Shown here: positions 845 to 29,690 of the stretch, one piece after another | Layout of the letters: each line of letters begins with the position of its first letter | How positions within the stretch are numbered: the first letter of the stretch is position 1 | DNA from: Deltaproteobacteria bacterium | GTDB taxonomy: Bacteria; Desulfobacterota_D; UBA1144; Nemesobacterales; UBA2774 | Length of the DNA: 35,025 bases | Direction of reading: 5' to 3' | Assembly (NCBI GenBank): GCA_029262275.1 | Contig: JAJCZS010000013.1 | Span: 1-35,025, forward strand | Notes under the pieces: generated by a model | Database searches by the model: none | Told to the model about the DNA's origin: nothing | Seen by the model: the letters and a program-made list of their open reading frames with translations, nothing else | Program-made: the position numbers and the translations under genes

Positions 845-949
845 GCCAGCTTTGTATTAACTCTTTATATTACCTCTTACCTATAACGATACTTACCTTC
901 TTCACTAAATACATATAGTTCTATAATTATATAGATATATGCCCAACCA

Positions 950-978
950 TTGTGCAATCTCGCACTTTATGATATTGT
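950..978 (+). promoter_or_regulatory. Extended -10 promoter of the 1170 gene
   Basis: TTGTGC at 950-955, 17 nt spacer, TATTGT at 973-978 preceded by TATGA. It has the same layout as seven other sorted-protein promoters in this window. Transcription would begin near 985, exactly at the 5' edge of the leader RNA. Confidence 0.6.
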
Positions 979-987
979 ATTTTTGGA

Positions 988-1134
988 GGGTATAGGATGG
1001 CTAATATTGACTAAGAATTAGGGAACCACCGTAATCCTTAGTTTATATAACTTCAAACCCACAACTCAAGTTCAAAAAAAGTGCTCCCGAGAACTATCCT
1101 TATGCGAAGTATCTGAGCACCATTTTCTTGAACT
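988..1134 (+). ncRNA. Candidate structured leader RNA, copy A
   Basis: 5' UTR element of the 1170 gene, homologous to copies at 2567-2709 and 4144-4315. Helix P2 pairs ACTAAG (1010-1015) with CTTAGT (1037-1042), continuing with ATTA/TAAT after an A.C mismatch. A second hairpin has AGTTCAA (1069-1075) with TTGAACT (1128-1134), and inside it GTGCTC (1081-1086) with GAGCAC (1115-1120). The closing helix P1 (988-996 with 1052-1060) is weak in this copy, needing G.U pairs and mismatches. The GGATGGC segment and CTTCAAACCCAC are conserved between copies. It matches no riboswitch class I recognise; its function is unknown. Confidence 0.55.
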
Positions 1135-1169
1135 AAAAATACCAACAATTGTTTTGAAGGAGGATACAG

Positions 1170-2390
1170 ATGAGAGTTATAAGTAGCGTAATTATTGCAT
1201 TTGTAATGGTTTTATTGCTAGGCGTCTCTGCCAATGCACAGACTGAAATTTATGGTATAGGTAGTTTTGATGGACGATTAGATCCGTGTTGCCCACCATG
1301 TGATGGTCCTGTATGCGAAGTTTGCATTTGCGACGATACTTTTGATACCAATCAAATAATTGGTTTCCTTGGAGAATCGGCATTCTACCAGGTAAACCCC
1401 ATTAACGGCAATCCTATATTTATAGGTTATACAGGATTTGCTGGATGTCGTGGACTAGACATTCATCCAACTACCGGAGACTTTTATGCAGTGTGTAATA
1501 GGTTCGAAATCCACGGACCTCCAGGACCTCCGGGCATGAATAAAGAATTAGACACAAATGAAGAAGAAATTGGCCAAGTATTAGTTCATATTGACCCAAA
1601 CACGGGACAGGGAACAGAAATTGGACCTCTAGGTGATGGCATAGGCGCCATCTTTAGTCGCTCAGGCTTTATATCTGACATTAGTTTTGATTCTACCGGA
1701 GAGCTATATGCACACCTAAATACTTTGAACGTAGTATATGTTCCACTTCCAGCTGATCCAGCAGAGAAGACATCCAGCGGTGTAACAGATAACACGCTTG
1801 GAACTATTGATCTTCTAACTGGAACTTTTCAACCTGTGGGACCTACAGGATCTAAAGATTTTATAAGCGCAATCGGATTCTCAAACATAGGTGAATTGAT
1901 TCAGTGTGCAAACTTTAACAATTTTGATAGAAGGCTAGTGGAACAAGAGAATAATATTATCCTTGATCCCAGCTTCACAAATATAAACAGTCTTAATATA
2001 AACACAGGTCTTGCAACATTTATAGAACAGGCTGCATTCCCACCAGATGTTGCTGGTCACTTTAATGTCATTACCTCTAAGGACGCAGATGACAGCACTG
2101 GTGTTTTTTATGCGTTTCTAAATACAGAGTTTGATAATTGGATCTTTGATGCTGATACCAAAAATATTGATAACGGCACATATCTGGTAAGAATAAATCC
2201 TTCTAATGGAAATGTAGACATTATTGGACAGACTTCTCTTGCTTTCGAGACCTTTGCAGCAATAGCAGTCAGGAGCAATATAAGAGACGTTCCTACCATG
2301 TCTGAATATGGTTTAATGGCTACAGCGGTATTATTACTAGGTGCTGCAACATTATATTTAAGACGTCGTAAGGCTCAAACAGAAGTATAA
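1170..2390 (+). CDS. Secreted propeller-like protein with SEYGL-type sorting signal (paralogue 1)
   Basis: A 406-residue secreted protein. Sec signal peptide at 1-23 (likely cut after ANA). A Cys-rich segment follows (CCPPCDGPVCEVCIC, residues about 39-53). Repeated blade-like units of the type 'lxxIDPxTGxgtxIGplG' suggest a beta-propeller-like fold of the YncE/NHL kind, interrupted by a short GPPGPPG stretch. The C-terminus (from about 374) has VPTMSEYGL, a hydrophobic helix and RRRK: an IPTL-CTERM-like exosortase signal in which Tyr replaces the usual Trp. Start supported by GGAGG 6 nt before the ATG. No enzyme motif is visible; a surface or matrix role is inferred. Paralogous to the 2747 and 4354 genes. 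Confidence 0.85.
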   Translation: MRVISSVIIAFVMVLLLGVSANAQTEIYGIGSFDGRLDPCCPPCDGPVCEVCICDDTFDTNQIIGFLGESAFYQVNPINGNPIFIGYTGFAGCRGLDIHPTTGDFYAVCNRFEIHGPPGPPGMNKELDTNEEEIGQVLVHIDPNTGQGTEIGPLGDGIGAIFSRSGFISDISFDSTGELYAHLNTLNVVYVPLPADPAEKTSSGVTDNTLGTIDLLTGTFQPVGPTGSKDFISAIGFSNIGELIQCANFNNFDRRLVEQENNIILDPSFTNINSLNINTGLATFIEQAAFPPDVAGHFNVITSKDADDSTGVFYAFLNTEFDNWIFDADTKNIDNGTYLVRINPSNGNVDIIGQTSLAFETFAAIAVRSNIRDVPTMSEYGLMATAVLLLGAATLYLRRRKAQTEV

Positions 2391-2426
2391 AACAGCAAAT
2401 TAAGGAGGCTTTTGCCTTCACTAAAA

Positions 2427-2460
2427 GGGGTATTCCTTTCAGGAATACCCCCTATTTTTA
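2427..2460 (+). terminator. Intrinsic terminator after the 1170 gene
   Basis: Perfect 10-bp stem GGGGTATTCC/GGAATACCCC with a 5-nt loop, followed by a modest T-rich tail. Confidence 0.75.
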
Positions 2461-2530
2461 TCTAATTTAAACATTCAGCATAACCAACGAGTTATTACCA
2501 TAATTTCTATACATTTCTATATATGTATTC

Positions 2531-2559
2531 TTGTATGTTTTTGGCAAATATGATATATT
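2531..2559 (+). promoter_or_regulatory. Extended -10 promoter of the 2747 gene
   Basis: TTGTAT (2531-2536), 17 nt, TATATT (2554-2559) preceded by TATGA. Same geometry as the promoters at 950 and 4107. The predicted start is just before leader RNA copy B. Confidence 0.6.
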
Positions 2560-2566
2560 GGAGATA

Positions 2567-2709
2567 GGTTAGAAGATGGCGAGTATAGACTAAGAATTAT
2601 GCACCGCCGTAATCCTTAGTTAATACAACTTCAAACCCACAAACAGTTCAATAAAGGTGCTCCCAAGAACTATCTTTACACAAAAGCTGAAGAGTCCTAC
2701 ATTTGAACT
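2567..2709 (+). ncRNA. Candidate structured leader RNA, copy B
   Basis: P1: GGTTAGAAG (2567-2575) pairs with CTTCAAACC (2629-2637), 8 pairs and one A.A mismatch. P2: ACTAAG (2589-2594) with CTTAGT (2615-2620), plus ATTA/TAAT above an A.C mismatch. P3: AGTTCAA (2645-2651) with TTGAACT (2703-2709), with partial inner pairing of GGTGCTC and GAGTCC. The conserved GATGGC follows the P1 left arm. The element ends 37 nt before the start codon at 2747. Confidence 0.6.
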
Positions 2710-2746
2710 GAAAAATACAAAAAATTGTTTTTGGAGGAGGATGCAG

Positions 2747-3952
2747 ATGAAAATTATAAGTAGCGTATTTATAGCTTTAACATTTGTCTTATTAATGAGC
2801 GTATCATCTAAAGCTCAGACTGAAATTTATGCATTAGGCAGCTTTAACGGAATGCTACAGTGTTGCCCACCATGTGATGGTCCTGTATGTGAAGTTTGCA
2901 ATTGCTTCGACACTATCGAGACCAATCAGGTCTTTGGTTTCCTTGGAGAAACAACATTATACAAGATAGACCCCAATTCAGGTTTTTCAGAAATAATAGG
3001 GTTCACTGGTTTTAGGGGATGCCAAGGGCTTGATATAGAGCCTCTCACAGGCGAGTTGTATGCAGTATGCAACCAGTTTGAAATTGGTCCTCCAGGACCT
3101 CCTGGAGTAATTGATGAAACAATAAATGAAGAGGATGCACCAGGTCAAGTGCTTGTTAAGCTTGATAAAAATACCGGACAGGGAACTCTGATCGGTTCTC
3201 TAGGTGATGGAATTGGCTCACGTTTATTCGGAGCAGGATTCATCTCTGATATTGATTTTAGATCAGATGGTGTTTTATTTGCCCATCTTAATAGTAATTT
3301 GCGGTACACGCTTGTAAATCCGGCAGAAAGCCTATCAAACGGTGTAACACAGAATTCACTTGGAACTATAAATTTACAAACAGGTAAATTTGATATTATC
3401 GGAACAACAGGTTCCTTTGATGAGTACAGCGCAATTGGATTTGATTTAGTGGGTGACTTAATTCAGTGTGCAAACAACAACAACTCAAGAGGACTTATTG
3501 ATTTAGGCACAAATACTCTGCCATTTTTACATGACACTGACATAAACCTCCTAAACCAGGACACCGGTAATGCTACATTTTTAACAAAGGCTGTTTTTCC
3601 ACCGGAACTTCAAGACCATGTAAACACCATAACATCTAAGGACTTTGATACTGAAAACAACATCATGTATGGCCTTATGACCACTCACGGTTTTGGTCAT
3701 GGTGGCACGCTCGCAACAAACAATCTTGTCCCAGACGGATCTTACTTAGTTAGATTAGACAGATCTACTGGTGATGTTCAACTTCTAGGTCAATCCTCTG
3801 GTCCTTTCGAAGACTTTTTAGCTATTGCTGTAAAGGGTAAGGTTAGAGTAGTACCAACAATGTCTGAATACGGTCTTATGCTTACAGTTGCACTTTTCTT
3901 AGGAGCAGCTGTAGTTTTCTTAAGACGTCGTCAAGCTAGATCAGAAGCATAA
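2747..3952 (+). CDS. Secreted propeller-like protein with SEYGL-type sorting signal (paralogue 2)
   Basis: A 401-residue paralogue of the 1170 product. The start is placed at 2747 because GGAGGAGG lies 6 nt upstream and a normal signal peptide (MKIISSVFIA... ending SKA) follows; the longer reading frame from 2657 would begin inside the leader RNA. It shares the CCPPCDGPVCEVC cluster, the GPPGPPG insert and the repeated 'DxxTGqgTlIGslG' blades. The C-terminus is VPTMSEYGL, a hydrophobic helix and RRRQ. Predicted to be exported and processed by an exosortase; molecular function unknown. Confidence 0.85.
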   Translation: MKIISSVFIALTFVLLMSVSSKAQTEIYALGSFNGMLQCCPPCDGPVCEVCNCFDTIETNQVFGFLGETTLYKIDPNSGFSEIIGFTGFRGCQGLDIEPLTGELYAVCNQFEIGPPGPPGVIDETINEEDAPGQVLVKLDKNTGQGTLIGSLGDGIGSRLFGAGFISDIDFRSDGVLFAHLNSNLRYTLVNPAESLSNGVTQNSLGTINLQTGKFDIIGTTGSFDEYSAIGFDLVGDLIQCANNNNSRGLIDLGTNTLPFLHDTDINLLNQDTGNATFLTKAVFPPELQDHVNTITSKDFDTENNIMYGLMTTHGFGHGGTLATNNLVPDGSYLVRLDRSTGDVQLLGQSSGPFEDFLAIAVKGKVRVVPTMSEYGLMLTVALFLGAAVVFLRRRQARSEA

Positions 3953-3992
3953 AATAGAAAACTAAGAAGGCACCAGCCTTCAATAAAATTAG

Positions 3993-4028
3993 AAAAGGGA
4001 CATTCCTTCTGGGTTTGTCCCTTTTCTA
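3993..4028 (+). terminator. Intrinsic terminator after the 2747 gene
   Basis: AAAAGGGAC (3993-4001) pairs with GTCCCTTTT (4017-4025); the T run is part of the stem, so it may act in both directions. Confidence 0.75.
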
Positions 4029-4106
4029 TTTCCAGCTCCACTTACAATCAAACAAATACTAGCTAAAAGCTCACGATATCTCGCTATATGCCTATTTAGA
4101 AATGTA

Positions 4107-4135
4107 TTGTAATTCAATTATGATTGTGATATTAT
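4107..4135 (+). promoter_or_regulatory. Extended -10 promoter of the 4354 gene
   Basis: TTGTAA (4107-4112), 17 nt, TATTAT (4130-4135) preceded by TGTGA. Predicted transcript start near 4142, immediately before the P1 helix of leader copy C. Confidence 0.6.
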
Positions 4136-4143
4136 CGAATAAA

Positions 4144-4315
4144 GGTTAGAAGATGGCGGGAAAAAGCTAAGAATAGCAAATCCACTTTGCAGCCCTCTTA
4201 GCTAATTTCACTTCAAACCAACATTTTTAAGTAGCAGTGGTGTATGAAGAGAGGCTTTAGGCACGAAATACAGATCCATAGCTATATATTTCAGACCTAA
4301 TACATCTTTTGCTAC
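4144..4315 (+). ncRNA. Candidate structured leader RNA, copy C
   Basis: P1: GGTTAGAAG (4144-4152) with CTTCAAACC (4211-4219), as in copy B. P2: GCTAAGA (4166-4172) with TCTTAGC (4196-4202), capped by GCAAA (4176-4180) with TTTGC (4186-4190); the bases differ from copies A/B but the pairing is kept. P3: GTAGCA (4231-4236) with TGCTAC (4310-4315), enclosing TGTAT/ATACA, again replacing AGTTCAA/TTGAACT by a different complementary pair. This covariation is the best evidence that the leader works as folded RNA. Confidence 0.6.
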
Positions 4316-4353
4316 CCATACTACTAAAACTAAATATCTATGGAGGATTGATG

Positions 4354-5472
4354 ATGAAGAATCTCAAATACTTTGTAATAGCCATATCTGTATTCTTACT
4401 ACTAGGTTTCTCAACCAGCGCCCAAGCCTCAGAACTCTATGGTTTGGCTCAGCTTGTTGGAGGCATTGACGGCGGTGGGGGAGTAAACGTGGCGGCAGAG
4501 AGACCACAAACTGTTTTTTACTCTATTGATCCAAACACGGGTATTCCAACAATGATTGGTGAAACCGGGTTTGATATTTGCACATCTCTGGACTTCGAGC
4601 CAGTTACAAATAGAGCATTTGCTGTATGCAATAGGATAATTGAGGGAAATGGTGAGGGGCCAATAGAAGAAGCGGTGATATTGGAAAACAGAATGGAGAA
4701 TGTGGGTCAGGTATTAGTAGAGCTAGACATGACAACCGGACAGGGAACCGAGATAGGCCCGCTGGGTGTATTCCTAAACGATATAGGAGTATCGGACATA
4801 TCATTTAGACCTGACGGCGCTCTATTTGGTATTATAGGAATTTCTGTAGAACCTGGAGACAATGATGAAGCAACGAAGGCGTTAGAATTTGAAGAAAACA
4901 CTTTAATTAGAATAGACACTAATACTGGTGAAGCATCGGTTGTTGGCCCTACAAACACAGGAGCTTCGATTGATGCTATTGGGTTCTCACTATCGGGTTC
5001 CCTCTACCATGCAACAGATAACGTTTTAGACCCAGGCACCATCAATATGCTAGATCATAATACAGGAGAAGGCACAAACCTTGGTAATTTAGATTACCCA
5101 GAAGGGTTTGATGGTGAAAATGTATTAAATTATATTACTTCTTTGGATTATGATACTTCTAAAAACCAACTATTTGGAATGCTTTTATCTCGAGTATTTG
5201 AAGATCGTGGAGTCGCAGAAGAACTAGAATCTAAAGTTGAGTTTGCTGAAGGGGCGTTCCTATTTAGATTAGATCCTGACTCCGGAGCTATAGAGCTTAT
5301 AGGAATGACTGCGCCATTTGGCAATCAGTTTATAGCTATGGCATTTCTTAACCGTAATCTCGTATCAGAGGTACCTACCCTATCTGAGTATGGCTTGATC
5401 GCAACTGCCGTATTCTTCCTAGGAGCATCGGTTCTTTTCTTAAGAAGACGTCAGGCTAAATTAGAAATATAA
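4354..5472 (+). CDS. Secreted propeller-like protein with SEYGL-type sorting signal (paralogue 3)
   Basis: 372 residues, the most diverged of the three paralogues. ATG codons at 4351 and 4354 both follow GGAGG (4342-4346); 4354 gives the better 7-nt spacing. Signal peptide MKNLKYFVIAISVF... ends near AQA. It lacks the Cys cluster and GPPGPPG of its two sisters; an acidic Gly-rich segment takes their place. It keeps the blades ('IDPNTGiptmIGetG', 'DMTTGQGTEIGPLG', 'IDTNTGEASVVGPT'). C-terminus VPTLSEYGL, helix, RRRQ. Its leader RNA is also the most diverged. Exported, exosortase-type processing inferred. Confidence 0.85.
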   Translation: MKNLKYFVIAISVFLLLGFSTSAQASELYGLAQLVGGIDGGGGVNVAAERPQTVFYSIDPNTGIPTMIGETGFDICTSLDFEPVTNRAFAVCNRIIEGNGEGPIEEAVILENRMENVGQVLVELDMTTGQGTEIGPLGVFLNDIGVSDISFRPDGALFGIIGISVEPGDNDEATKALEFEENTLIRIDTNTGEASVVGPTNTGASIDAIGFSLSGSLYHATDNVLDPGTINMLDHNTGEGTNLGNLDYPEGFDGENVLNYITSLDYDTSKNQLFGMLLSRVFEDRGVAEELESKVEFAEGAFLFRLDPDSGAIELIGMTAPFGNQFIAMAFLNRNLVSEVPTLSEYGLIATAVFFLGASVLFLRRRQAKLEI

Positions 5473-5704: not shown

Positions 5705-6469
5705 ATGAAGCTAGCAAATAAAACAGCAATCATTACAGGCGGCGGTACCGGAATAGGAAAAGCTACTGCGCATCTTTTTGCAGAGGAAGGAGCTAATGTT
5801 GTCATTACCGGAAGAAGAGAAGAGAAATTAAAGGAGGTACAAGAGGAGGCAAAAGCAAAAGGACACAATATCGATATCTTTATTTGTGACGTTTCCAATG
5901 AGGATGACTGCAAATCTACAGTTGACTATGCTGTAGATAAGTACGGCAGGGTCGATATTCTATTCAACAATGCTGGTGTGCTCTACGGAGGCGCAACTCA
6001 CGAAACTGATACAGAAACATGGGAAAAAACTTTTGACATAAATGTTAAAGGCACATATTTCATGTCTAAACATATCATACCGCATATGCTCGAGCATGGT
6101 GGCGGATCAATTGTAAATAATTCCTCAATAGTTGGCCTAAAGGGAATGCCGGGCTTTGCAGCATATGTTGCATCAAAGGGAGCTATTACCCAGTTTACAA
6201 AGGCCATGGCTCTTGAGTATGCTGATAAAGGGATCAGAGTAAATGCTATTTGCCCTGGAGCAATTGAGACACCAATGATAGTCGAAGATTTTTTTGGCAA
6301 AGTAGACGACCCAGAGGCTGCAAAAGAATTCCTCATCTCCCTGCACCCTGTTGGAAGACTCGGAAAGTCTGAAGAGATTGCGCACTCGATCTTGTTCCTT
6401 GTTGACGACAACATTGGATTCATGACAGGCAACATGCTATCAGTAGACGGCGGCTGGATTGCTAGATAG
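5705..6469 (+). CDS. SDR family NAD(P)-dependent oxidoreductase (copy 2)
   Basis: A 254-residue paralogue of the 80-844 product with the same length and motifs: TGGGTGIG (11-18), CDV (61-63), NNAG (88-91), catalytic Ser, YVASK, PG. The C-terminal 20 residues are the same in both. AGGAG precedes the ATG by 7 nt. Codons differ extensively between the copies although the proteins are close, so the duplication is not recent or has been under protein-level selection. Likely the same reaction class; substrate unknown. Confidence 0.95.
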   Translation: MKLANKTAIITGGGTGIGKATAHLFAEEGANVVITGRREEKLKEVQEEAKAKGHNIDIFICDVSNEDDCKSTVDYAVDKYGRVDILFNNAGVLYGGATHETDTETWEKTFDINVKGTYFMSKHIIPHMLEHGGGSIVNNSSIVGLKGMPGFAAYVASKGAITQFTKAMALEYADKGIRVNAICPGAIETPMIVEDFFGKVDDPEAAKEFLISLHPVGRLGKSEEIAHSILFLVDDNIGFMTGNMLSVDGGWIAR

Positions 6470-10851: not shown

Positions 10852-12215
10852 ATGGTAGGACTTCAATTTAAATCAGGAATTAAAACATTATTCTTAACTT
10901 TTCTTTTAGCAGTATCCCTTGGAACAGTTTCATATGCCGCAACATTCACAGTAACAAATACAAATGACTCAGGCGCTGGATCACTTAGGCAAGCTATTTC
11001 TGATGCTATGCCTGCAGATACAGTACAGTTCGCCGAGAACTTGGCGGGCGGTACAATTAATCTCCAAAGTGAGATAGCTTTTAATAAGGGATTAATAATT
11101 AATGGTCCTAACGCAGGAATTACAACTATAAGTGGTCAGGACTCAACAAGAATATTCAATATTACAGGAACCGATCTTGAAACGGTAGTTATAACACGCC
11201 TTAGATTTGCAAATGGGTTTGCAGATCAAGACAGTGGCGGGGCAATTAGAATATCAGAACCAGCTCTGGAGTTAGACCATTGCATATTTGATTCCAATAG
11301 GACCTTCTGTGGCACAGCAGATTGCGTGCATTTGGAGCAGCTTTAGAGTATAGAAGTGGTCCTGGCTTTATTATTACCTACACAACTTTCACTCATAACT
11401 CCAGTGAGTGTAATGGATTGGACTGTGATGCATCCGGAGCTGCTATTTTATCTGGTGCTGGCGGCGCAACATATTCTATTAGTAAAAGCGCATTTGTTTC
11501 AAACTCCGCAACCTGTACTGGAGAGGAATGCGATGCAGATGGAGCAGCCTTTAGCAATGGCGGTGGAGGAGCAATTATAGAAATAGACAACAGCACCTTT
11601 GCTCTTAATAGTTCTCAGTGTAATGGATTTGAATGTGATGCAGATGGAGCGGGCATAAACAACGGCGGAGGAGGAGTGGTAACAGAAATTCATAACAGCA
11701 CTTTCGATTTAAACTCCTCAAGCTGTGTTGGTGTAGACTGTAATCAAAGCGGAGCTAGCATTAGTGGTCTTAGAGACGTAACAATAAGTAACACTATTTT
11801 CAAGACACTATCACCTGAGGGAAATTGTAATGAGTTTGATGACATAACATCCCTTGGCTATAACATTGAGAACGGCTCGAGTTGCATAGACGGAACTGTT
11901 TTTGGAGACAAACCTAATACTCTTCCAGGTCTTGACCCAGCCGGTCCACGGGATAATGGAGGCCCTACACCTACAGTTGCACTTCTGGAAGACAGCCCTG
12001 CCCTAGATATGGGCCCGCCAGCGTGCCCTCCACCTGATACTGACCAAAGAGGATTTATTCGCCCTGAAGGCCCAAGATGTGACATTGGAGCGTTTGAAGG
12101 TTTTGTATTAAGGACCCCTATTCCCACTCTCTCGGAGTGGGGATTAATTGCCATGGCAGGAATCTTAGGAATCGTAGGATTTATGGTTGTCAGAAGAAGG
12201 CAAGATATCGCTTAA
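10852..12215 (+). pseudogene. Beta-helix / choice-of-anchor Q-type IPTL-CTERM protein, frameshifted
   Basis: Two overlapping frames (10852-11346 and 11322-12215) form one gene of about 454 codons. Signal peptide to about residue 29, then the 'TFTVTNTNDSGAGSLRQAI' opening typical of right-handed beta-helix surface proteins. Next come about five ~36-residue units of the form STFxxNSSxCxGxxCDADGAxxxNGGGG, then the 'DNGGPTPTVALL...SPALDMG...CDIGAFE' block of choice-of-anchor Q proteins. It ends with IPTLSEWGL, a helix and RRRQ. The break is near 11325-11328: the unit consensus predicts GATTGCGATGCATTTGG but one A is missing, so unit one stops prematurely at 11344. All repeats after the break are well preserved, favouring a very recent mutation, phase variation or a sequencing/assembly error. 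GGAGG precedes the ATG. Confidence 0.8.
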
Positions 12216-12220
12216 ATAGT

Positions 12221-12249
12221 TTGTCTTCCTCTTTATAACATGATAATAT
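12221..12249 (+). promoter_or_regulatory. Extended -10 promoter of the 12285 gene
   Basis: TTGTCT (12221-12226), 17 nt, TAATAT (12244-12249) preceded by CATGA. It begins 6 nt after the stop codon of the preceding gene, with no terminator between. Confidence 0.6.
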
Positions 12250-12284
12250 TAACCAAATATTTTATAGTTTAAAGGAGGATGTTG

Positions 12285-13037
12285 ATGATGGCTTCTAGAC
12301 TCAGAAAAGTAGTGTTCTATGTTTTAGTGTTAGCTGTTTCCTTTGTTACATCTTATTCACTGGCTTCTGCACAGGTTAGTTTTACAAATGACGAGCCCCA
12401 ATTTATTGCAAACAACCCTGGACTTGCATTTCAGAACTTTGACGCGGCAATGGCTGCCCCTAATACACTAACTACTTGCACTGGCCCTGTTGATGAGAAC
12501 TCAAATGATGCATGCTTTCAACCGGGAGACATACTGCCGGGAATAGCATTTAGTGAGATTCCATCCATTCCAGATGCCCCCCTTTTAGTGGGTGAAAATA
12601 GAACTGGCAACAACAATCCAGCAAATATATTGGCAAACAATACATTTGATGATAGTTTAGAAGTCACATTTACTCAGAGCCCTAATGCGGTTGGACTTGT
12701 AATAGGCTGTCTTGCTGTTAGTAATGGGTGTAGTGAAACAGTAGTAGTAGAGGTATTCGGCCCTGGTGATGCTCTATTAGGTTCAACAAATGTAGCGGTT
12801 ACTGCTCTCGCGGACAGTTTTATTGGTATGGTGACACAAAGCCCAATAACGAGAGTCAATTTGGATATTAATATGCCTAATGGCCAAGTAGTAAAATCTA
12901 TATTAAATGTTAGATTTGGATTAGGTCCGGAACCTGAGCTAATACCTACCCTCTCAGAGTGGGGATTAATCGCAATGGCTGGTCTTCTTGGAATCGTAGG
13001 ATTTATGGTTGTAAGAAGAAGACAGTTATCTGCTTAA
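12285..13037 (+). CDS. Secreted IPTL-CTERM protein with jelly-roll-like domain
   Basis: 250 residues. ATGs at 12279, 12285 and 12288 are possible; 12285 has the best distance from GGAGG (12274-12278). Signal peptide ends near SAQ. The body has a beta-rich pattern ('SFTNDEPQFIANNPGLAFQNFDAA...', '...DDSLEVTFTQSPNAVGLVIGC...', 'VVVEVFGPGDALLGSTNVAV') resembling the FxxF/jelly-roll domain of PEP-CTERM-associated proteins. Three or four Cys may form disulfides. C-terminus IPTLSEWGL, helix, RRRQ. Exported and exosortase-processed by inference; binding partner unknown. Confidence 0.85.
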   Translation: MMASRLRKVVFYVLVLAVSFVTSYSLASAQVSFTNDEPQFIANNPGLAFQNFDAAMAAPNTLTTCTGPVDENSNDACFQPGDILPGIAFSEIPSIPDAPLLVGENRTGNNNPANILANNTFDDSLEVTFTQSPNAVGLVIGCLAVSNGCSETVVVEVFGPGDALLGSTNVAVTALADSFIGMVTQSPITRVNLDINMPNGQVVKSILNVRFGLGPEPELIPTLSEWGLIAMAGLLGIVGFMVVRRRQLSA

Positions 13038-13071
13038 AGTCTAAAGTAATATCAAATTAAAAACTTTATGG

Positions 13072-13111
13072 GAGCCTAGAAAGTGAGATCTTTCTAGGCT
13101 CTTTTTTTTTT
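13072..13111 (+). terminator. Strong intrinsic terminator after the 12285 gene
   Basis: Perfect 12-bp stem (GAGCCTAGAAAG/CTTTCTAGGCTC), 6-nt loop, 10 T. Confidence 0.92.
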
Positions 13112-13160
13112 GCAAATCGTTCCTCAATTTATTCTCCGACTTTTCCTTCTTATATATATA

Positions 13161-13189
13161 TTGTTATAACAATTCGCCTGTGATAACAT
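13161..13189 (+). promoter_or_regulatory. Extended -10 promoter of the 13218 gene
   Basis: TTGTTA (13161-13166), 17 nt, TAACAT (13184-13189) preceded by TGTGA; ATG 28 nt downstream. Confidence 0.6.
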
Positions 13190-13217
13190 ACTTGTCATTA
13201 AATTTAGGAGGATGTAG

Positions 13218-13730
13218 ATGCTAAATAAAAATAGTATATCAATTTATGCAGCTTGTTTTTTAATTGTTGGTTTTTTCTATATAGCTCTAGCTGAGAATGG
13301 GAATGCGGGGATTGCACCATTACCACCGTGTCCGTGCGATACTGAAGTATTGAGTGATGGAACAAGTGGTAATGATATCGTTGAGCAAGTCTGCCCAGGT
13401 GGCAACCTTGGTGAGAATAGTGTCTTCCAAGATAGTCCAGAAGAGCTTAGAATTGCTTTAGAAATTGACCCAAATTCAGATTACGAAGTCTCGGACAATC
13501 CATCATGTACAATAAACACTAATGGTGCAGAGCCAGTTAGCCTGGATTTAACTGATGAAGAATTCGAACTTTGCAGAGAACGACTAACTATAGGATGCGG
13601 CTTTGGACCTCCACCCCCTGCTCCCTCAAGAAACGTCCCAACACTATCAGAATGGGGACTAATCGCAATGGCTGGTCTTCTAGGAATAGTAGGATTTATG
13701 GTTATTAGGAGAAGGCAGATTACAGTCTAG
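13218..13730 (+). CDS. Small Cys-containing IPTL-CTERM protein
   Basis: 170 residues. N-terminal signal sequence (about 1-30, ends near NAG), then a PPCPC cluster, an acidic central region with spaced Cys (VCPGG, PSCTI, ELCRE, IGCGFG), a proline linker, and VPTLSEWGL, helix, RRRQ. AGGAGG precedes the ATG. No recognised domain beyond the sorting signal. The even distribution of Cys suggests a disulfide-stabilised surface protein. Confidence 0.8.
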   Translation: MLNKNSISIYAACFLIVGFFYIALAENGNAGIAPLPPCPCDTEVLSDGTSGNDIVEQVCPGGNLGENSVFQDSPEELRIALEIDPNSDYEVSDNPSCTINTNGAEPVSLDLTDEEFELCRERLTIGCGFGPPPPAPSRNVPTLSEWGLIAMAGLLGIVGFMVIRRRQITV

Positions 13731-13777
13731 AGCCTAGAGATAATTGCATCTCAAATCTATACAATAATTAAAAAAAC

Positions 13778-13786
13778 TGTTATAAT
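13778..13786 (+). promoter_or_regulatory. Consensus extended -10 upstream of the 13907 gene
   Basis: TGT followed by TATAAT (13781-13786), a perfect -10 with TG extension. The -35 (TATACA at 13758) is poor. It implies a leader of about 115 nt before 13907, in which I see no strong fold. Confidence 0.5.
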
Positions 13787-13906
13787 AGGCTTCTAATAAG
13801 GCGGCTTACCGGGATTTTACTATATAGACTACGGTTTTTAATATCTAAATCTGCAAATAAAAAGTTATACAAAAAAATAAACATCTTTAATTAATGGAGG
13901 GATGAT

Positions 13907-15262
13907 ATGAAAAAATTATTTTCACTAAGCTTGATAGCTTTAGTTTTCGCTTTGGGGCTAAGCTTAGATTCGTATGGTTTTTGTGTACGTACCGGTCCTA
14001 ATGGACCTGGTAATGTTATAGACTGTCCGACTCCTATCCAGGTTATTCCACTTAACCCATTCGTAAATGCACCCAACAATACAACTTTTTTTGATGATAT
14101 TGTGACTATACCACTAAACGGTGGAGTTATTGTCGGGCCTGAACCTCTAGGAGCAGTAGATACTTCTTTTGGATCCGATATGGTTACTGTCAGCGGTAAT
14201 ATAGTAGGTGACATTATTGGTCTTAACACAGGGCTTCTTATACCGGGTTCTGACACAGTGATCGTGAATCCTGGTGCTAATATTTCCGGTGGCACAGGAA
14301 TTCTGACTGGAGGAAGCGCTGACTTTGTTCAAATAAATGGAGGATCTGTTGTAGGTACAGCAATTGCTGCCTTGTTCACAGGCGGTGGTCCTGACACAGT
14401 TGAGATCAACGGTGGTAATGTTGATGGCGGATTTTTCCTCTCATTTTCTACAGACTTTGGTGATGATATGCTTACCATAAACGATGGTACGTTTAATGGA
14501 CCAATATCCATGGGTTTCGGAAATGACACTGCAAGATTAAATGGGGGAACATATAATTTCCTAACTCTTGGAATGGGCCCCGGAGACGACACTCTACATA
14601 TTACTAACAACATTCCAGATATTGGACTGTTAAGCTGTGGAGAAAACATTTTTGGTCCTGGTGACGATGACACTCTTATATTCTCAATGCAGGTTCCTGC
14701 AAATGAAGTTGCGCAGTTATCTCAAGATTTCATAAATGCTGGTGAGAGCGGCAGTCTCGAGGTAAACGGCGTTACATACTCATGGGTATTTTGCGAGAAC
14801 AGAATTCCCAACTTCAACGGCGTTGTAACAACTATTGAACTAAGCCCTATTGGAGCAATTAACCCAGTAGGTACTGATCACACTGTTGATGCTGAGGTCT
14901 CAACAAACGTCGGAGGACCTACCGAGGGTCTACTTGTTACTTTTGAAATAAACGAAGGACCTAACGCAGGACTAGACAGTGGCTCAGACGGCACATGCTC
15001 TCCAAATCCTGACTGTACGACAGATTCGAATGGAGAAGTATCCTGGACATATACCAGCAACGGTTTAGTTGGCATTGATACAATTGTTGCCACTACTGAT
15101 GACCAATTTATTGGTATGACAAGTTCAAACACTGTTGAGAAAGAATGGGAAAATGTTCCATTAGAAATCCCAACACTAAGTGAGTGGGGATTAATCGCAA
15201 TGGCCTCTATTCTTGGAATAGTTGGATTCATGGTTGTTAGAAGAAGACAAGTAGTTGCTTAA
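13907..15262 (+). CDS. IPTL-CTERM protein with beta-repeats and Ig-like (Big_1) domain, copy 1
   Basis: 451 residues. Signal peptide about 1-24. Residues about 60-270 hold repeated strands of the type 'DTVxINGGxxxG' / 'FGDDMLTINDGTFNG', consistent with a beta-helix or beta-solenoid. Residues about 310-410 resemble a bacterial Ig-like (invasin/Big_1) domain: 'HTVDAEVSTNVGGPTEGLLVTFEI...G...DSNGEVSWTYTSNGLVGIDTIVA'. The sorting signal IPTLSEWGL, helix, RRRQ closes it. GGAGGG precedes the ATG. Tandem paralogue of the 15476 gene, with nearly identical 3' UTR and terminator. Confidence 0.87.
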   Translation: MKKLFSLSLIALVFALGLSLDSYGFCVRTGPNGPGNVIDCPTPIQVIPLNPFVNAPNNTTFFDDIVTIPLNGGVIVGPEPLGAVDTSFGSDMVTVSGNIVGDIIGLNTGLLIPGSDTVIVNPGANISGGTGILTGGSADFVQINGGSVVGTAIAALFTGGGPDTVEINGGNVDGGFFLSFSTDFGDDMLTINDGTFNGPISMGFGNDTARLNGGTYNFLTLGMGPGDDTLHITNNIPDIGLLSCGENIFGPGDDDTLIFSMQVPANEVAQLSQDFINAGESGSLEVNGVTYSWVFCENRIPNFNGVVTTIELSPIGAINPVGTDHTVDAEVSTNVGGPTEGLLVTFEINEGPNAGLDSGSDGTCSPNPDCTTDSNGEVSWTYTSNGLVGIDTIVATTDDQFIGMTSSNTVEKEWENVPLEIPTLSEWGLIAMASILGIVGFMVVRRRQVVA

Positions 15263-15297
15263 TATATAGAAATAAAAGTTTTTAAAAGTTAAAGGAA

Positions 15298-15335
15298 GGG
15301 AGCTTGGTGCTTATTGCGCCGGCTCCCTTTTTTTT
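15298..15335 (+). terminator. Terminator of the GGGAGC/GCTCCC family (copy 1)
   Basis: GGGAGC (15298-15303) pairs with GCTCCC (15322-15327), inner GGTGC/GCGCC pairing, T run. Confidence 0.85.
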
Positions 15336-15475
15336 AGGACTGTCATTGCTCTTTCTTTGACCAATTGGCATAGAGCAATTGGCCCCGTATTAGTTCCTTA
15401 TATATATATCTAATTATTAGTCATCACCCCCTCATGACTATACAATAGATCAATTCTTATTGTATGGAGGATGTG

Positions 15476-16798
15476 ATGAAGAACCTACTACTGTTTAGCT
15501 TTATAGCTTTAGTTTTTGCCCTTGGTCTAAGTCAGAGATCTCATGCTGACTGTGTTGATCTGGGTCCTAACGGAGGAACTGGCGGCAGAATTATAGACTG
15601 CCCAGCTCCCGTTCAAGCAACCCGTCTAAATACAACTTCAGTACCAGCACAAACAACAACCTCGGATGATATAGTAACAATACCAAACGCAGGCGGTGTA
15701 GCCATCATAGATGGTGGTGGAAGCGCGGCAGTAACAACAAGTTTTGGTAATGACACAATTACTGTAAATGGTGAGATCTCATCTACAAGCAGCACTGCTC
15801 TTCTTACAAGCACTGACAATGATATGTTAACCGTCGGAACTGGGGCCAATATTATTGGAAACCTCGCAATTTCTATGACCAGTGGGGTTGATCTAATTGA
15901 GGTATTCGACGGAAATATTACAGGAGTAACCAGCACTCCGGTAAATACTGGAAGTGGCAATGACACAGCCATAATTAATGGAGGAACTTTTACCTCGCAA
16001 GCAAGTTCAACAATCTTTATGATGGATGATGATGAGGATCTTTTAATCATAAACGGAGGCACATTTGTTGGGCCAAGCGGTGACGGATCCGGACAGATTA
16101 TAACAAATCAGGATGATGACACTATAATACTTTCAGGCGGCACATATAATTTTAATGAAATTGATGCGTCCAGTGGTGATGATACTATCCATATAACAGC
16201 AGATCTTCCCGATGTAGGATTGCTACAATGCGGTTCTAACATAGATACACTTATATTCTCAATGGGCGTACCACAAGCACAGGTTGACCAACTCACAGCC
16301 GACTTTCTCAATGCCGGAAACACCGACGGACTTACCGTAAACGGAAATGATTACAGCTGGGCTGGTTGTGAGAATAGGATACCAAATTTCAATGCTCTTA
16401 TTACTACCATTAGCCTAACTCCTTTTATGGCAACAAATGAGCTCTTGGAGGACCACACAGTTACAGCCACGGTTTTAACAAATGGTGATCCTGAATCGGG
16501 TGTAGAAGTAACATTTGAAATTACTAGCGGTCCTAACGAAGGGTTAACAGACACTGACACTACTGATGCGAATGGAGAGGCTACATTTACCTTCACTAGC
16601 CCCAGGCTAGGTATGGATACAATAGTTTCTACATTTGATGATCCAAATCTAGGTACTATGAGCTCAAACAGTGTTTCCAAAACGTGGATACGGACAATAA
16701 ACGTTCCAACCCTTTCTGAGTGGGGACTAATTGCAATGGCCTCTCTTCTTGGAATAGTTGGTTTCATGGTTGTAAGAAGAAGACAAGTAGTTGCTTAA
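15476..16798 (+). CDS. IPTL-CTERM protein with beta-repeats and Ig-like (Big_1) domain, copy 2
   Basis: 440 residues; start at 15476 chosen because GGAGG is at 15466-15470 and aligns with copy 1 (MKNLLLFSFIALVFALGLS). Same order: signal peptide, solenoid-like repeats ('NDTITVNGEI', 'NDTAIINGGTF', 'DDTIILSGGTYNF'), Cys-flanked LPDVGLLQCG segment, Ig-like domain ('HTVTATVLTNGDPESGVEVTFEITSGPNEG...DANGEATFTF'), VPTLSEWGL, helix, RRRQ. The final ~30 residues are almost identical to copy 1, while the repeats have diverged, as expected for a surface protein whose exposed part evolves faster. Confidence 0.87.
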   Translation: MKNLLLFSFIALVFALGLSQRSHADCVDLGPNGGTGGRIIDCPAPVQATRLNTTSVPAQTTTSDDIVTIPNAGGVAIIDGGGSAAVTTSFGNDTITVNGEISSTSSTALLTSTDNDMLTVGTGANIIGNLAISMTSGVDLIEVFDGNITGVTSTPVNTGSGNDTAIINGGTFTSQASSTIFMMDDDEDLLIINGGTFVGPSGDGSGQIITNQDDDTIILSGGTYNFNEIDASSGDDTIHITADLPDVGLLQCGSNIDTLIFSMGVPQAQVDQLTADFLNAGNTDGLTVNGNDYSWAGCENRIPNFNALITTISLTPFMATNELLEDHTVTATVLTNGDPESGVEVTFEITSGPNEGLTDTDTTDANGEATFTFTSPRLGMDTIVSTFDDPNLGTMSSNSVSKTWIRTINVPTLSEWGLIAMASLLGIVGFMVVRRRQVVA

Positions 16799-18650: not shown

Positions 18651-19232
18651 ATGAACGAACTAAAAAATACACGTGAGGTGTGGGATCAGTTCTCAGGACA
18701 GATAAGAGGCTATCTGCTAGGGAAAGTTAAGCAGAGGGATGATGCTGATGATCTGCTGCAGGAGATCTTTATCAAAATTCACAATAACATCGGAACACTA
18801 CAGGATGAGAAGAAGCTTGCCCCATGGATACATCAGATAGTGCGCAACTCTCTTACGGATTATTATAGGAAACGTAATCTCGAAACTACTGAACTAGATG
18901 AAGAAAGCACTTTGTCAGATAATACCGAAGCAGATGATGACCTATATTCTGCTTGTATCTCGGGGTGCTTAAAAGTTTTTATAGATAGACTTCCAGATAA
19001 ATATAGAGAGCCTTTGGTACTAAGCGATATAGAGGAGCTTAAGCAAAAAGATATCGCAAAACAGATGGGGCTTTCCTATTCCGGGCTCAAATCACGCGTG
19101 CAGCGCGGGCGCAGTATGATAAAAGATATGTTTGTTGAGTGCTCCTGCTTTATTCACGACAGCAATGGAAAATTTACACAGGGTAGCCTTGATTCAGAGA
19201 ACTGTAGTATATGCAACCCGGGCGCGAACTGA
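18651..19232 (+). CDS. sigZ: SigZ-like RNA polymerase sigma factor (ECF type)
   Basis: 193 residues. Region 2: 'VWDQFSGQIRGYLLGKVKQRDDADDLLQEIFIKIHNNI' through 'WIHQIVRNSLTDYYRKR' (about 10-78). Region 4: 'LPDKYREPLVLSDIEELKQKDIAKQMGLSYSGLKSRVQRGRSMIKDMF' (about 112-160). This arrangement and wording match the SigZ group. The tail (about 161-193) has a CSCFIHDSNGKF...ENCSICNP pattern with four Cys and one His, which may bind zinc or sense thiol redox state. No anti-sigma gene adjoins. RBS weak. The gene name is by similarity only. Confidence 0.85.
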   Translation: MNELKNTREVWDQFSGQIRGYLLGKVKQRDDADDLLQEIFIKIHNNIGTLQDEKKLAPWIHQIVRNSLTDYYRKRNLETTELDEESTLSDNTEADDDLYSACISGCLKVFIDRLPDKYREPLVLSDIEELKQKDIAKQMGLSYSGLKSRVQRGRSMIKDMFVECSCFIHDSNGKFTQGSLDSENCSICNPGAN

Positions 19233-20058: not shown

Positions 20059-20574
20059 TTACTCAACAGTATTCATGCTGGCATTGGATTCCCATTGACC
20101 TCCGCATGACACCTTTCCCGCAGATGTGGTACGACAGTCCTTTGCCATTCCCCCACATGCAACGTTGCCAGCAGAAGTTGTTCTGCAATCCTTAGATAAA
20201 CCACCGCATGCTACGTTGCCCTTGGATGTAGTACGGCAGTCTTTGGATAACCCGCCACAGGCTACATTCCCAGCAGAGGTTGTTCTGCAATCTTTGGATA
20301 AGCCACCGCAGGCGACATTACCAGCCGATGTTGTACGGCAGTCTTTGGAAAGTCCACCGCATGCTACGTTTCCGGCAGAGGTAGTTCTGCAGTCTTTTGA
20401 TCTTCCCCCGCAAGCAACTTGCCCCTTGGATGTGGTCCTGCAGTCCTTCGAGCCGCAGAAAACAAGCCCCTCCACTATCACACACGCATCATTGATATCC
20501 ACTGCGTCTGCATATGGTGAAAAGGATAGGATTAAACCTAAACTTAGAGACAAGCTGTATAGATATTTTTTCAT
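20059..20574 (-). CDS. Secreted protein with seven 17-residue Cys repeats
   Basis: 171 residues. Signal peptide about 1-24 (ends YADA). Residues 43-161 are seven tandem units with consensus KDCRTTSAGNVACGGLS, each with two Cys seven residues apart or so, in an otherwise Thr/Gly-rich context. Unit spacing is exactly 17 residues (51 bp, 20092-20448). A related but degenerate unit (DACVIVEGLVFCGS) precedes. The product is probably a disulfide-laddered beta-solenoid exported to periplasm or surface. No family recognised. The start ATG follows GGTGGGGG. It is 96 nt upstream of the AhpD-like gene and may be co-transcribed with it. Confidence 0.8.
   Translation of the reverse strand: MKKYLYSLSLSLGLILSFSPYADAVDINDACVIVEGLVFCGSKDCRTTSKGQVACGGRSKDCRTTSAGNVACGGLSKDCRTTSAGNVACGGLSKDCRTTSAGNVACGGLSKDCRTTSKGNVACGGLSKDCRTTSAGNVACGGMAKDCRTTSAGKVSCGGQWESNASMNTVE
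20092..20448 (-). repeat. Tandem 51-bp coding repeats (7 units) with 102-bp higher order
   Basis: In coding order the Arg codon of DCRTTS runs AGG, AGA, CGT, AGA, CGT, AGA, CGT. Neighbouring Thr and Asp codons alternate with it, so the array probably grew by duplication of a two-unit, 102-bp block. Confidence 0.8.
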
Positions 20575-20656: not shown

Positions 20657-20694
20657 ATTTGTGATTGAAGCACACTCACTGGAGGAAACAATTC

Positions 20695-21015
20695 ATGAGA
20701 CTACTTGTTTTAGCTATCGCATTTCTATATTCTGGAGCAGCATACTCACAAGGGGTACCATTTTCTGGATGTTGCCAGTTTGTGAACTCCTGTGAAACCC
20801 TTTCTCAGGATGCTTGCATTGCGGATCCTACAAGTATGGAGTTCTTTATTAATGAAGAATGCCAGCCAGGAGCTCTAACATGCCCTAGCTTTGTGCTTGC
20901 GGACCCAGAACCGAGCACCGTCCCTACTCTCTCAGAATGGGGTCTAATCGCAATGGCTGGAATACTTGGATTAGTAGGATTTATGGTGATAAGAAGAAAG
21001 AAAGTATCAGTTTAA
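20695..21015 (+). CDS. Small IPTL-CTERM protein with CC-type disulfide module
   Basis: 106 residues; start 20695 has GGAGG at 20681-20685 and is followed directly by a signal peptide (MRLLVLAIAFLYSGAAYS). The mature part is a single 'GCCQ...C...DAC...F...EC...C' module, recalling the CC-x-DGxC disulfide repeats found in many exported bacterial proteins. It ends in VPTLSEWGL, helix, RRKK. Related in layout to the 28580 and 29187 products. Confidence 0.8.
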   Translation: MRLLVLAIAFLYSGAAYSQGVPFSGCCQFVNSCETLSQDACIADPTSMEFFINEECQPGALTCPSFVLADPEPSTVPTLSEWGLIAMAGILGLVGFMVIRRKKVSV

Positions 21016-21047
21016 AATCTAAAAACATTTCAATTTAGAACTTATAA

Positions 21048-21088
21048 GGGTGTCTCGAGCTAGTAAAGTTAGAGACCCCTCTTTTTTT
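21048..21088 (+). terminator. Intrinsic terminator after the 20695 gene
   Basis: GGGTGTCTC pairs with GAGACCCC around 21048-21079 (one bulge), then seven T. Confidence 0.8.
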
Positions 21089-21145
21089 GGTTTACCTTAA
21101 GTCTATATATCCGAATTCATAGCTTTGCACCAGACTATATAGTTA

Positions 21146-21174
21146 TTGTGATAAATATACTAGTGCGATAATAT
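21146..21174 (+). promoter_or_regulatory. Extended -10 promoter of the 21204 gene
   Basis: TTGTGA (21146-21151), 17 nt, TAATAT (21169-21174) preceded by TGCGA; ATG 29 nt downstream. Confidence 0.6.
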
Positions 21175-21203
21175 AGATTTATCAATATTGAGGAGGATGA
21201 AAG

Positions 21204-22124
21204 ATGTATATATTGAGATTAACAATTTCAACTATTTTTGTTCTTATGATCACTTATAGTGTATCAAGTGCACAAACGGATCTATTGATTGCTGCTAACG
21301 ATGCATGCCAACAGGACGATATAGGAAGCGAAGACAGCACACTTTTTAGGGTTGATCCATCATCGGGAGTACTCACAGAGATCGGACCAATCGGTTTCAA
21401 CGCTGTAACAGGGATGACTGTTCTAGGAGATGGGAGACTAGTAGCCAGTGCAAGAGCTGATGCAAACGGAGACAGGATATCAATCCTAATCGAAATAAAC
21501 CCTATGACCGGGCAAGGAACACTTATTGGGACTATAGGGAATAATAATGAAGGAGGCTGCGGAAGAGCCCCCGACCTTACCTATGACCCAACTACAGATA
21601 CACTCTACGGGATAGGCTTCAGATGTGTACCAGGAGATGGCCATGGTGGTATAACAGAGCTTCTTACAATAAATCAGACAACTGGACAGGGTACGACTGT
21701 AGGACAAACAGGATTTTTCGGTGGAGGAAACGGTTTAGCTATTAGTCCCAACCTCACATTGTTTTCTATGACAAATTTTAATTTTTTAAGCATTAATCCT
21801 AATACTGGTGCGGGTTCGCCGGTAGCATTGGCAACATTACCAAACGGTGTAATATCTGCATTGGATTTTCACCCTGAAACTGGTGAACTATTCGGTATAG
21901 AATTCCAATTTGTTACTTTCCCTACCTTTCTTGTAACTATTGATACTTCAAATTCCAATATCAACAGGCTTACAGAGTTGCCAGTATGTTCCGATGCCTT
22001 GGTATTTATGGAGAGACAACAGAGAAACGTACCCACTCTATCCCAATGGGGTCTCATAGCAATGGCAGGGCTTTTAGGAATAGTAGGATTTATGGTTATC
22101 CGCAGAAAAAGACTGACTGCTTAA
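21204..22124 (+). CDS. Propeller-like IPTL-CTERM protein
   Basis: 306 residues. Signal peptide about 1-23 (ends SSAQ). Blade-like units 'LFRVDPSSGVLTEIGPIGF', 'LIEINPMTGQGTLIGTIG', 'LLTINQTTGQGTTVGQTGF', 'FLSINPNTGAGSPVAL', 'LVTIDTSNSNINRLTEL' indicate a beta-propeller related to the three SEYGL proteins at 1170-5472, but the sorting motif is VPTLSQWGL (Trp class) and no leader RNA precedes it. GGAGG before the ATG. Surface localisation inferred. Confidence 0.85.
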   Translation: MYILRLTISTIFVLMITYSVSSAQTDLLIAANDACQQDDIGSEDSTLFRVDPSSGVLTEIGPIGFNAVTGMTVLGDGRLVASARADANGDRISILIEINPMTGQGTLIGTIGNNNEGGCGRAPDLTYDPTTDTLYGIGFRCVPGDGHGGITELLTINQTTGQGTTVGQTGFFGGGNGLAISPNLTLFSMTNFNFLSINPNTGAGSPVALATLPNGVISALDFHPETGELFGIEFQFVTFPTFLVTIDTSNSNINRLTELPVCSDALVFMERQQRNVPTLSQWGLIAMAGLLGIVGFMVIRRKRLTA

Positions 22125-28579: not shown

Positions 28580-28963
28580 ATGACAAGCAAGAACATTATT
28601 TCAACTGTAGTTATTTCCCTTTTTGTATTCGGTTTTGTATTTTTAACGCTACCTGAAAAAGGGTACTCTGGCACTGGAATCCCAACGTTTCCACCAGTCA
28701 TTGGGGGATGCTGTCAATATTTAGAAATTGCGGAGGCTGGATCTGCTTGTGCTGAAGTTGTATTTGAACAGTGCCCAGCACCTCCACCCGGATTTGCTTT
28801 TGATGACTTTAGAACAGGTGAGTCTTGTGTTGTAGAAACAGGCCGATGTGAGCGTCCAGCAGCAGACGTTCCTACCCTATCCGAATGGGGTCTAATAGCC
28901 ATGGCTGGTATTTTGGGAATAGTAGGTTTTATGATTATTAGAAGAAGAAAACAAGTAGCATAA
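28580..28963 (+). CDS. Small IPTL-CTERM protein with CC-type disulfide module
   Basis: 127 residues. Signal peptide about 1-32 (ends GYSG). The mature part holds one 'GGCCQYLEIAEAGSACAEVVFEQC...F...GESCVVETGRC' module, then VPTLSEWGL, helix, RRRK. GGAGGG precedes the ATG. Closest in layout to the 20695 product; the CCQ opening is shared. Probably exported, disulfide-bonded and exosortase-processed. Confidence 0.8.
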   Translation: MTSKNIISTVVISLFVFGFVFLTLPEKGYSGTGIPTFPPVIGGCCQYLEIAEAGSACAEVVFEQCPAPPPGFAFDDFRTGESCVVETGRCERPAADVPTLSEWGLIAMAGILGIVGFMIIRRRKQVA

Positions 28964-28990
28964 ACATACAAGTTAGAACAAAAACTATAA

Positions 28991-29026
28991 GGGGCTTTGC
29001 ACATCTAGTGCAGGCCCTTTTTTTTT
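28991..29026 (+). terminator. Intrinsic terminator after the 28580 gene
   Basis: GGGC...GCCC with inner GCA/TGC pairing, followed by nine T. Confidence 0.85.
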
Positions 29027-29120
29027 GCTTATTTATTTGTTCTTTAGTCCATTATTCTTAGATTTAGAGCTAATAAAGTGATCTGTATAAAGCATCGCTT
29101 AATTTCAAATTATATAATCG

Positions 29121-29149
29121 TTGTTATCTATATTGCAATATGATAGAAT
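29121..29149 (+). promoter_or_regulatory. Extended -10 promoter of the 29187 gene
   Basis: TTGTTA (29121-29126), 17 nt, TAGAAT (29144-29149) preceded by TATGA; the closest to consensus of the set. Confidence 0.65.
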
Positions 29150-29186
29150 TGAAAATTATTGACAATATTCCTGGCGGAGGATGATA

Positions 29187-29690
29187 ATGAAAACTAATAG
29201 ATCTATATCGTTATCGGTTGGTTTTTTCCTAGTTTTTGCTTTAGCCCTACTTATTATTCCAAAAGAATCACACTCTGGTATGGCCTTCAGTCTTGGATGC
29301 TGTATAGCCGATAATGAATGCTTGGGATGTGGTGAGCTTGGTGAGGATTGTGCAGTTACCCAAGGTACCTGTCTATTAGACCTGGGCGGCACTTTCTTTG
29401 AGGGAAGCAGTTTTTGCTCGGAAGGGTTGCCTGGGGCAAATTGTTTTGCTGCTGGCGGCACACCAGGGTGTTGTATAACAGGCCCAGGCTTATGTCAGGA
29501 TGATGTAATTATTTCATCCTGCGGTGGTGATCAATGGTTTTTAGATACTGCATGCTCCGAAGTATCAGTATGTTCTGAGAGTCCAAACAGGAATATCCCT
29601 ACTCTATCTAAATGGGGGCTTATATCTATAGCTCTTATTCTTGGTATAGCAGGATTTATAGTAATAAGAAGAAGACAAGCAACAGCTTAA
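29187..29690 (+). CDS. IPTL-CTERM protein with two CC-type disulfide modules
   Basis: 167 residues; start 29187 preferred over 29181, which abuts the GGCGGAGG ribosome site. Signal peptide about 1-31. Two Cys modules: 'GCCIADNECLGCGELGEDCAVTQGTCL...F...SFCSEGLPGANC' and 'GCCITGPGLCQDDVIISSCGG..W....ACSEVSVC'. Sorting motif IPTLSKWGL with Lys in place of Glu, helix, RRRQ. A two-module relative of the 20695 and 28580 products. Confidence 0.8.
   Translation: MKTNRSISLSVGFFLVFALALLIIPKESHSGMAFSLGCCIADNECLGCGELGEDCAVTQGTCLLDLGGTFFEGSSFCSEGLPGANCFAAGGTPGCCITGPGLCQDDVIISSCGGDQWFLDTACSEVSVCSESPNRNIPTLSKWGLISIALILGIAGFIVIRRRQATA

Follow-up and report, generated by a model that had tools for sequence, protein, structure and literature searches.

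A structured leader RNA of about 75 nt was found in ten copies, distributed over four of the seven species sequenced from a single Dadabacteria genus. It comprises a stem (P1), an asymmetric bulge AUGGC and a second stem (P2), and it is previously undescribed, both in Rfam and in the literature searched. Because homologs occur at orthologous and independent loci, P2 is compensated, the position relative to the promoter is fixed and no Rfam family matches, the leader is very probably a functional cis-acting RNA. We read it as a cis-regulatory RNA, specific to the genus and placed at the very 5' end of the message (probability about 55%), with a proposed toggle as the least certain part. The element is defined and testable, and it links exosortase-sorted surface proteins with tiny membrane proteins.

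The analyzed window was an entire contig of 35,025 bases from the 2.48 Mb genome of an uncultured Dadabacteria bacterium. Three leaders (A, B and C) precede three surface protein genes in it (Table 1). A sequence-only reading of the window had proposed a shared order of P1, GATGGC, P2 and a long hairpin P3. The first three were common to all leaders, and P1 was exact in B and C and poor in A, as claimed. P3 was not shared, since C carries a different hairpin.

Table 1 Features of the three leaders and their genes in the window. Mini-ORFs are predictions from sequence only.
Feature	Position	Strand	Sequence or product	Basis
Putative promoter region of leader A	925-986	+	ATTG (-35-like), TATGAT/GATATT (-10-like)	aligned upstream regions
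Leader A	987-1061	+		covariance model match, 91 bits (itself a training member); fold
Leader A, P1 (weak)		+	GGGT..CTTCAAACCC	
Leader A, P2	1009-1015 / 1037-1043	+	GACTAAG / CTTAGTT	
Mini-ORF A	997-1014	+	ATGGCTAATATTGACTAA, MANID then stop	predicted
Variable downstream hairpin (P3) of A	1069-1134	+	AGTTCAA/TTGAACT	z = -4.9 for 1061-1140
Surface protein A	1170-2390	+	exported, IPTL-CTERM-like, 406 aa	TIGR04174, 19.8 bits vs cut-off 20.5
Leader B	2566-2639	+		fold and covariance model
Leader B, P1	2567-2575 / 2629-2637	+	GGTTAGAAG / CTTCAAACC	
Leader B, P2	2588-2594 / 2615-2621	+	GACTAAG / CTTAGTT	
Mini-ORF B	2576-2593	+	ATGGCGAGTATAGACTAA, MASID then stop	predicted
Variable downstream hairpin of B	2644-2710	+	CAGTTCAA/TTGAACTG	fold
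Surface protein B	2747-3952	+	401 aa	family models
Leader C	4143-4221	+		fold and covariance model
Leader C, P1	4144-4152 / 4211-4219	+	GGTTAGAAG / CTTCAAACC	
Leader C, P2	4165-4172 / 4196-4203	+	AGCTAAGA / TCTTAGCT	
Mini-ORF C	4153-4170	+	ATGGCGGGAAAAAGCTAA, MAGKS then stop	predicted
Variable downstream hairpin of C	4230-4325	+	best fold closed by AGTAG/CTACT	fold energy
Surface protein C	4354-5472	+	372 aa	family models

The change of P2 from ACTAAG/CTTAGT in A and B to GCTAAGA/TCTTAGC in C was real, and the pattern continued in the seven further copies. In a MAFFT alignment of all ten, which was not fitted to the structure, changes on both sides were seen at each of the 11 pairs. The observed values of the pair measures were reached by none of 500 shuffles of this alignment, and slid structures scored below the true register. 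Native P2 arms paired at -11.95 kcal/mol vs -7.27 kcal/mol for swapped arms (eight divergent copies, p = 2.5e-5), and the P2 segment folded more stably than shuffled sequences (eight copies, Stouffer Z = -6.5); the leader paralogs are non-independent samples. P2 is kept by compensation, a conserved secondary structure upstream of the genes. The arm swaps and shuffles supported this compensation, but significance did not extend to individual pairs: a tree-based, R-scape-like test, of low power because it had only ten sequences, gave no single significant pair, and 30 of the 400 null alignments matched or exceeded the summed P2 score. We take this to limit the claim. P1 and AUGGC were conserved as sequence, and covariation of P1 was not measurable (arm-swap test, p = 0.18).

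The argument from kept pairing to a functional RNA, which held for P2, failed for P3. The helix was said to change from AGTTCAA/TTGAACT to GTAGCA/TGCTAC with pairing retained, but P3 is non-homologous between A/B and C. In leader C, the claimed GTAGCA/TGCTAC fold reached -19.5 kcal/mol vs -25.7 kcal/mol for the AGTAG/CTACT stem, about 6 kcal/mol worse. A and B have P3 in common because they are close paralogs; the remaining copies have unrelated hairpins at this position, and those of Thermodesulfobacteriota bacterium DHS20C13 (G002) have none. A hairpin here is energetically favoured (Stouffer Z = -5.1), with no covariation claimable. P3 was rejected as a component of the conserved element, as the hairpins are unrelated across copies and the C fold differs.

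A search of related genomes with a covariance model from the three copies had been suggested, and it recovered copies outside the array. This model, built from the window copies only, gave four further copies at E <= 0.007 and one at 0.29. One match (36 bits) fell on a different contig of the source genome (C29:156204-156282), two preceded array genes in genome G004 (C171), one lay in G004 C123, and Candidatus Dadabacteria G006 (C13) gave a weak match. Two copies in G002 were added, one by synteny (C1, upstream of a surface protein gene and behind an SDR gene) and one by an exact pattern scan of named genomes (C4). A second model from all ten copies, run against 58 genomes of the phylum, returned these ten only at E <= 0.01, and none of the 58 held the element outside the genus. 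The source genome, G006 and G002 were placed in this one Dadabacteria genus.

The exact pattern scan matched 26 stretches, close to the 17 expected by chance on a rough manual estimate, and promoter, P1 and P2 occurred together only in the two Dadabacteria ones (L060, L070). The remaining stretches were read as chance matches because most of them continue as coding sequence. Three matches in viral contigs were left outside the ten-copy count. Weak model matches at L006, L016 and L086 were dropped, their sequence reading as coding, and so was that at L088, where an ordinary gene begins (ATGGCGAAAAAA). A first protein-based scan of the genome contigs found nothing.

The order SDR gene, leader, surface protein gene was kept at leader A, G004 C123 and G002 C1. 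The loci are divergent: between the window and the other two, the SDR proteins were 58-59% identical and the surface proteins about 37-42%. The G006 C13 and G002 C4 copies are mutual orthologs, with pyrophosphatase, VWA and transporter genes in common on their flanks. Copies arising only through recent tandem duplication, which would have undercut the sequence-only reading, are excluded, because the same element is present at orthologous and independent loci outside the array. Within the window, two paralogous SDR-family oxidoreductase genes (80-844 and 5705-6469) bracket the three-gene array.

The leader precedes genes for surface proteins of the IPTL-CTERM type and for tiny membrane proteins of two kinds. 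None of the three array proteins in the window reached the IPTL-CTERM cut-off, which two of them missed by a small margin, and a search of solved structures with these proteins gave no match. The genome encodes an XrtH-type exosortase, matched above its cut-off, which is consistent with IPTL-CTERM sorting. The C29 copy stands before the gene for a 51-aa protein consisting almost entirely of an IPTL-CTERM-like VPTLSFWG tail (L013:1313-1468, minus strand, G000:C29). The start of a large open frame, SpvB/TcB-like by eye, adjoins this copy (L013:2119-3078). Both orthologous copies, in G006 C13 and G002 C4, precede a gene for a 35-aa membrane protein; compared with its DHS20C13 counterpart, the G006 gene (L060:6300-6700) begins with ATA, has no standard start and is frame-shifted.

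Similar -35- and -10-like elements were aligned directly ahead of all ten copies, at a near-fixed distance. This spacing predicts a transcription start at or beside the first bases of P1. A DNA promoter element, in which a regulator binds the initially transcribed region and the hairpin is incidental, would also suit the strong conservation of AGAAGATGGC and the near-constant spacing from the -10-like element. We regard this as highly improbable, as the P2 arms stay complementary while their letters change, which DNA binding leaves unexplained. An antisense small RNA was also rejected, the other genomic AGAAGATGGC sites falling in long open frames. Between the window leaders and their genes, no terminator-like site was found, and transcription attenuation was rejected on this ground. 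The best reading from the sequence is that the leader acts after the start of transcription, on translation or mRNA decay.

The route to such control that we favour is a toggle of P1 between its own 5' strand and the ribosome site of the gene. The message would begin at or next to the first P1 base, and its 5' end would fold into P1, the AUGGC bulge and P2. With P1 closed, the ribosome site would be free and the 5' end of the message paired. Occupation of the 5' strand or the bulge, whether by a protein, a ligand or a ribosome initiating on an AUGGCN mini-ORF, would release the P1 3' strand (CUUCAAACC), which could then pair with the purine-rich ribosome site. The P1 3' strand paired slightly better with the ribosome sites of its own genes than with 25 control sites (p = 0.008 and 0.016). 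Native pairs were not clearly better than pairs swapped to the sites of other leader genes (p = 0.10), and the anti-SD strength of leader genes did not differ from that of control sites (p = 0.43). Between P1 and the start codon lie anywhere from 32 to 148 nt, so a direct expression platform is not obvious. We consider the toggle tentative, at somewhat less than even odds. Its extension to a new class of leader RNA, in which a start-like AUGGC bulge within a 5'-terminal stem reads the availability of ribosomes or of a factor and the freed strand sets the translation of exosortase-sorted envelope and tiny membrane proteins, is speculative and on balance unlikely.

The conserved AUGGC may itself be read as coding. 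In all ten copies, AUG GCN opens a frame of 5-12 codons that ends in a stop, and the position following GATGGC is variable (G, T or C), as would suit an Ala codon. GAUGGC would then be kept as a start plus an Ala codon, and initiating ribosomes would open P1 and P2, setting downstream translation or stability. The other two frames stop by codon 12 in only 5 and 6 of the ten copies, a contrast that is weak given the relatedness of the copies. There is a precedent in the ilvB-II motif of Corynebacterium, a candidate structured RNA later explained as a uORF leader (PMC10272879). Like the leader described here, it is conserved and restricted to a genus, and each copy has a start codon followed closely by an in-frame stop. 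Its peptide is rich in branched-chain residues and transcription attenuation was proposed (PMC10272879), whereas the Dadabacteria leader has an unconserved peptide and no terminator-like site. The ten predicted peptides (MANID, MASID, MAGKS, MAGKC, MAVTD, MAVRDKE, MANFRLITV, MADIGQFLLR, MANTDLVVIGR and MAGNAEHYMTKL) showed neither conservation nor amino-acid bias. Residues from position 3 on are unconserved, which argues against a stalling peptide. Pairing with the anti-SD was far weaker at the mini-ORFs than at the genes (p = 0.0006) and almost absent in G006 and G002; initiation near the 5' end may be possible. We judge control by the mini-ORF rather unlikely, if the strongest of the alternatives. 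If ribosomes did use the mini-ORF, the same nucleotides would serve it and a structured RNA at once, a simple instance of such sharing.

None of the 4227 families of Rfam 15, which include riboswitches, leaders and thermometers, matched the leader at gathering score, in agreement with the earlier statement that it fits no nameable riboswitch class. Like the cis-regulatory families of Rfam, it is a structured element in the 5' UTR of coding genes; it differs in matching none of them, in corresponding to no known ligand class and in its restriction to one genus. A conserved unpaired bulge beside a stem conserved in sequence and a second, variable stem is a usual shape for a sensor, and ten loci share a single promoter type. 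P1, the bulge and P2 could accordingly form a binding pocket for a small molecule or ion that controls P1. The lack of an Rfam match, the confinement to one genus, targets without a common metabolic theme, and the absence of a conserved apical loop or pseudoknot make such a riboswitch decidedly unlikely; a pseudoknot of AUGGC with the P2 loop was dropped, since the loop CC is missing by eye in the G006 and DHS20 (G002) copies. Sensing of a metabolite, an ion or temperature, and binding of a protein, had all been suggested. Ribosome- or protein-based control is at least as likely as metabolite, ion or temperature sensing, because the element occurs in one genus only, lacks a conserved expression platform and overlaps the AUGGCN mini-ORF.

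The 5' UTR of E. coli ompA carries a 5'-terminal stem-loop that lengthens the life of the mRNA (references listed in PMC3997798). The Dadabacteria leader would be similar in its base-paired 5' end, given the predicted start, and is similar in belonging to envelope protein mRNAs. In contrast to ompA, the sequence of its stem and bulge is conserved, and copies stand before several unrelated genes. A protective stem-loop, or a site for an RNA-binding protein, might likewise prolong the life of mRNAs for abundant envelope proteins: the predicted transcript opens with P1, the element occurs irrespective of how far away the start codon lies, and in Methylomirabilis an IPTL-CTERM protein is an S-layer protein (PMC8671808). 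Mere protection would need neither the conserved AUGGC nor a sequence-conserved stem, and the 5' end is predicted from -10-like elements only; we hold this explanation to be unlikely.

No leader-RNA control of IPTL-CTERM proteins was found in the literature searched. PEP-CTERM genes are under transcriptional, sigma-54 control by RpoN and PrsK-PrsR (PMC9850573), which likewise co-regulates genes for exosortase-sorted surface proteins. In the Dadabacteria genus, by contrast, the upstream sites look sigma-70-like and the shared feature lies in the RNA.

Elsewhere in the window, nine more open frames with IPTL-CTERM-like tails were noted at 11322-16798, 20665-22124 and 28580-29690, none with this leader; two of the tails were checked against family models and the others by eye. 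Among the surface protein genes, a sigma-70-family factor, ECF-like by eye, has a cysteine-containing C-terminal tail (18651-19232). A small exported protein on the minus strand (20059-20574) consists of near-identical SKDCRTTSAGNVACGG repeats.
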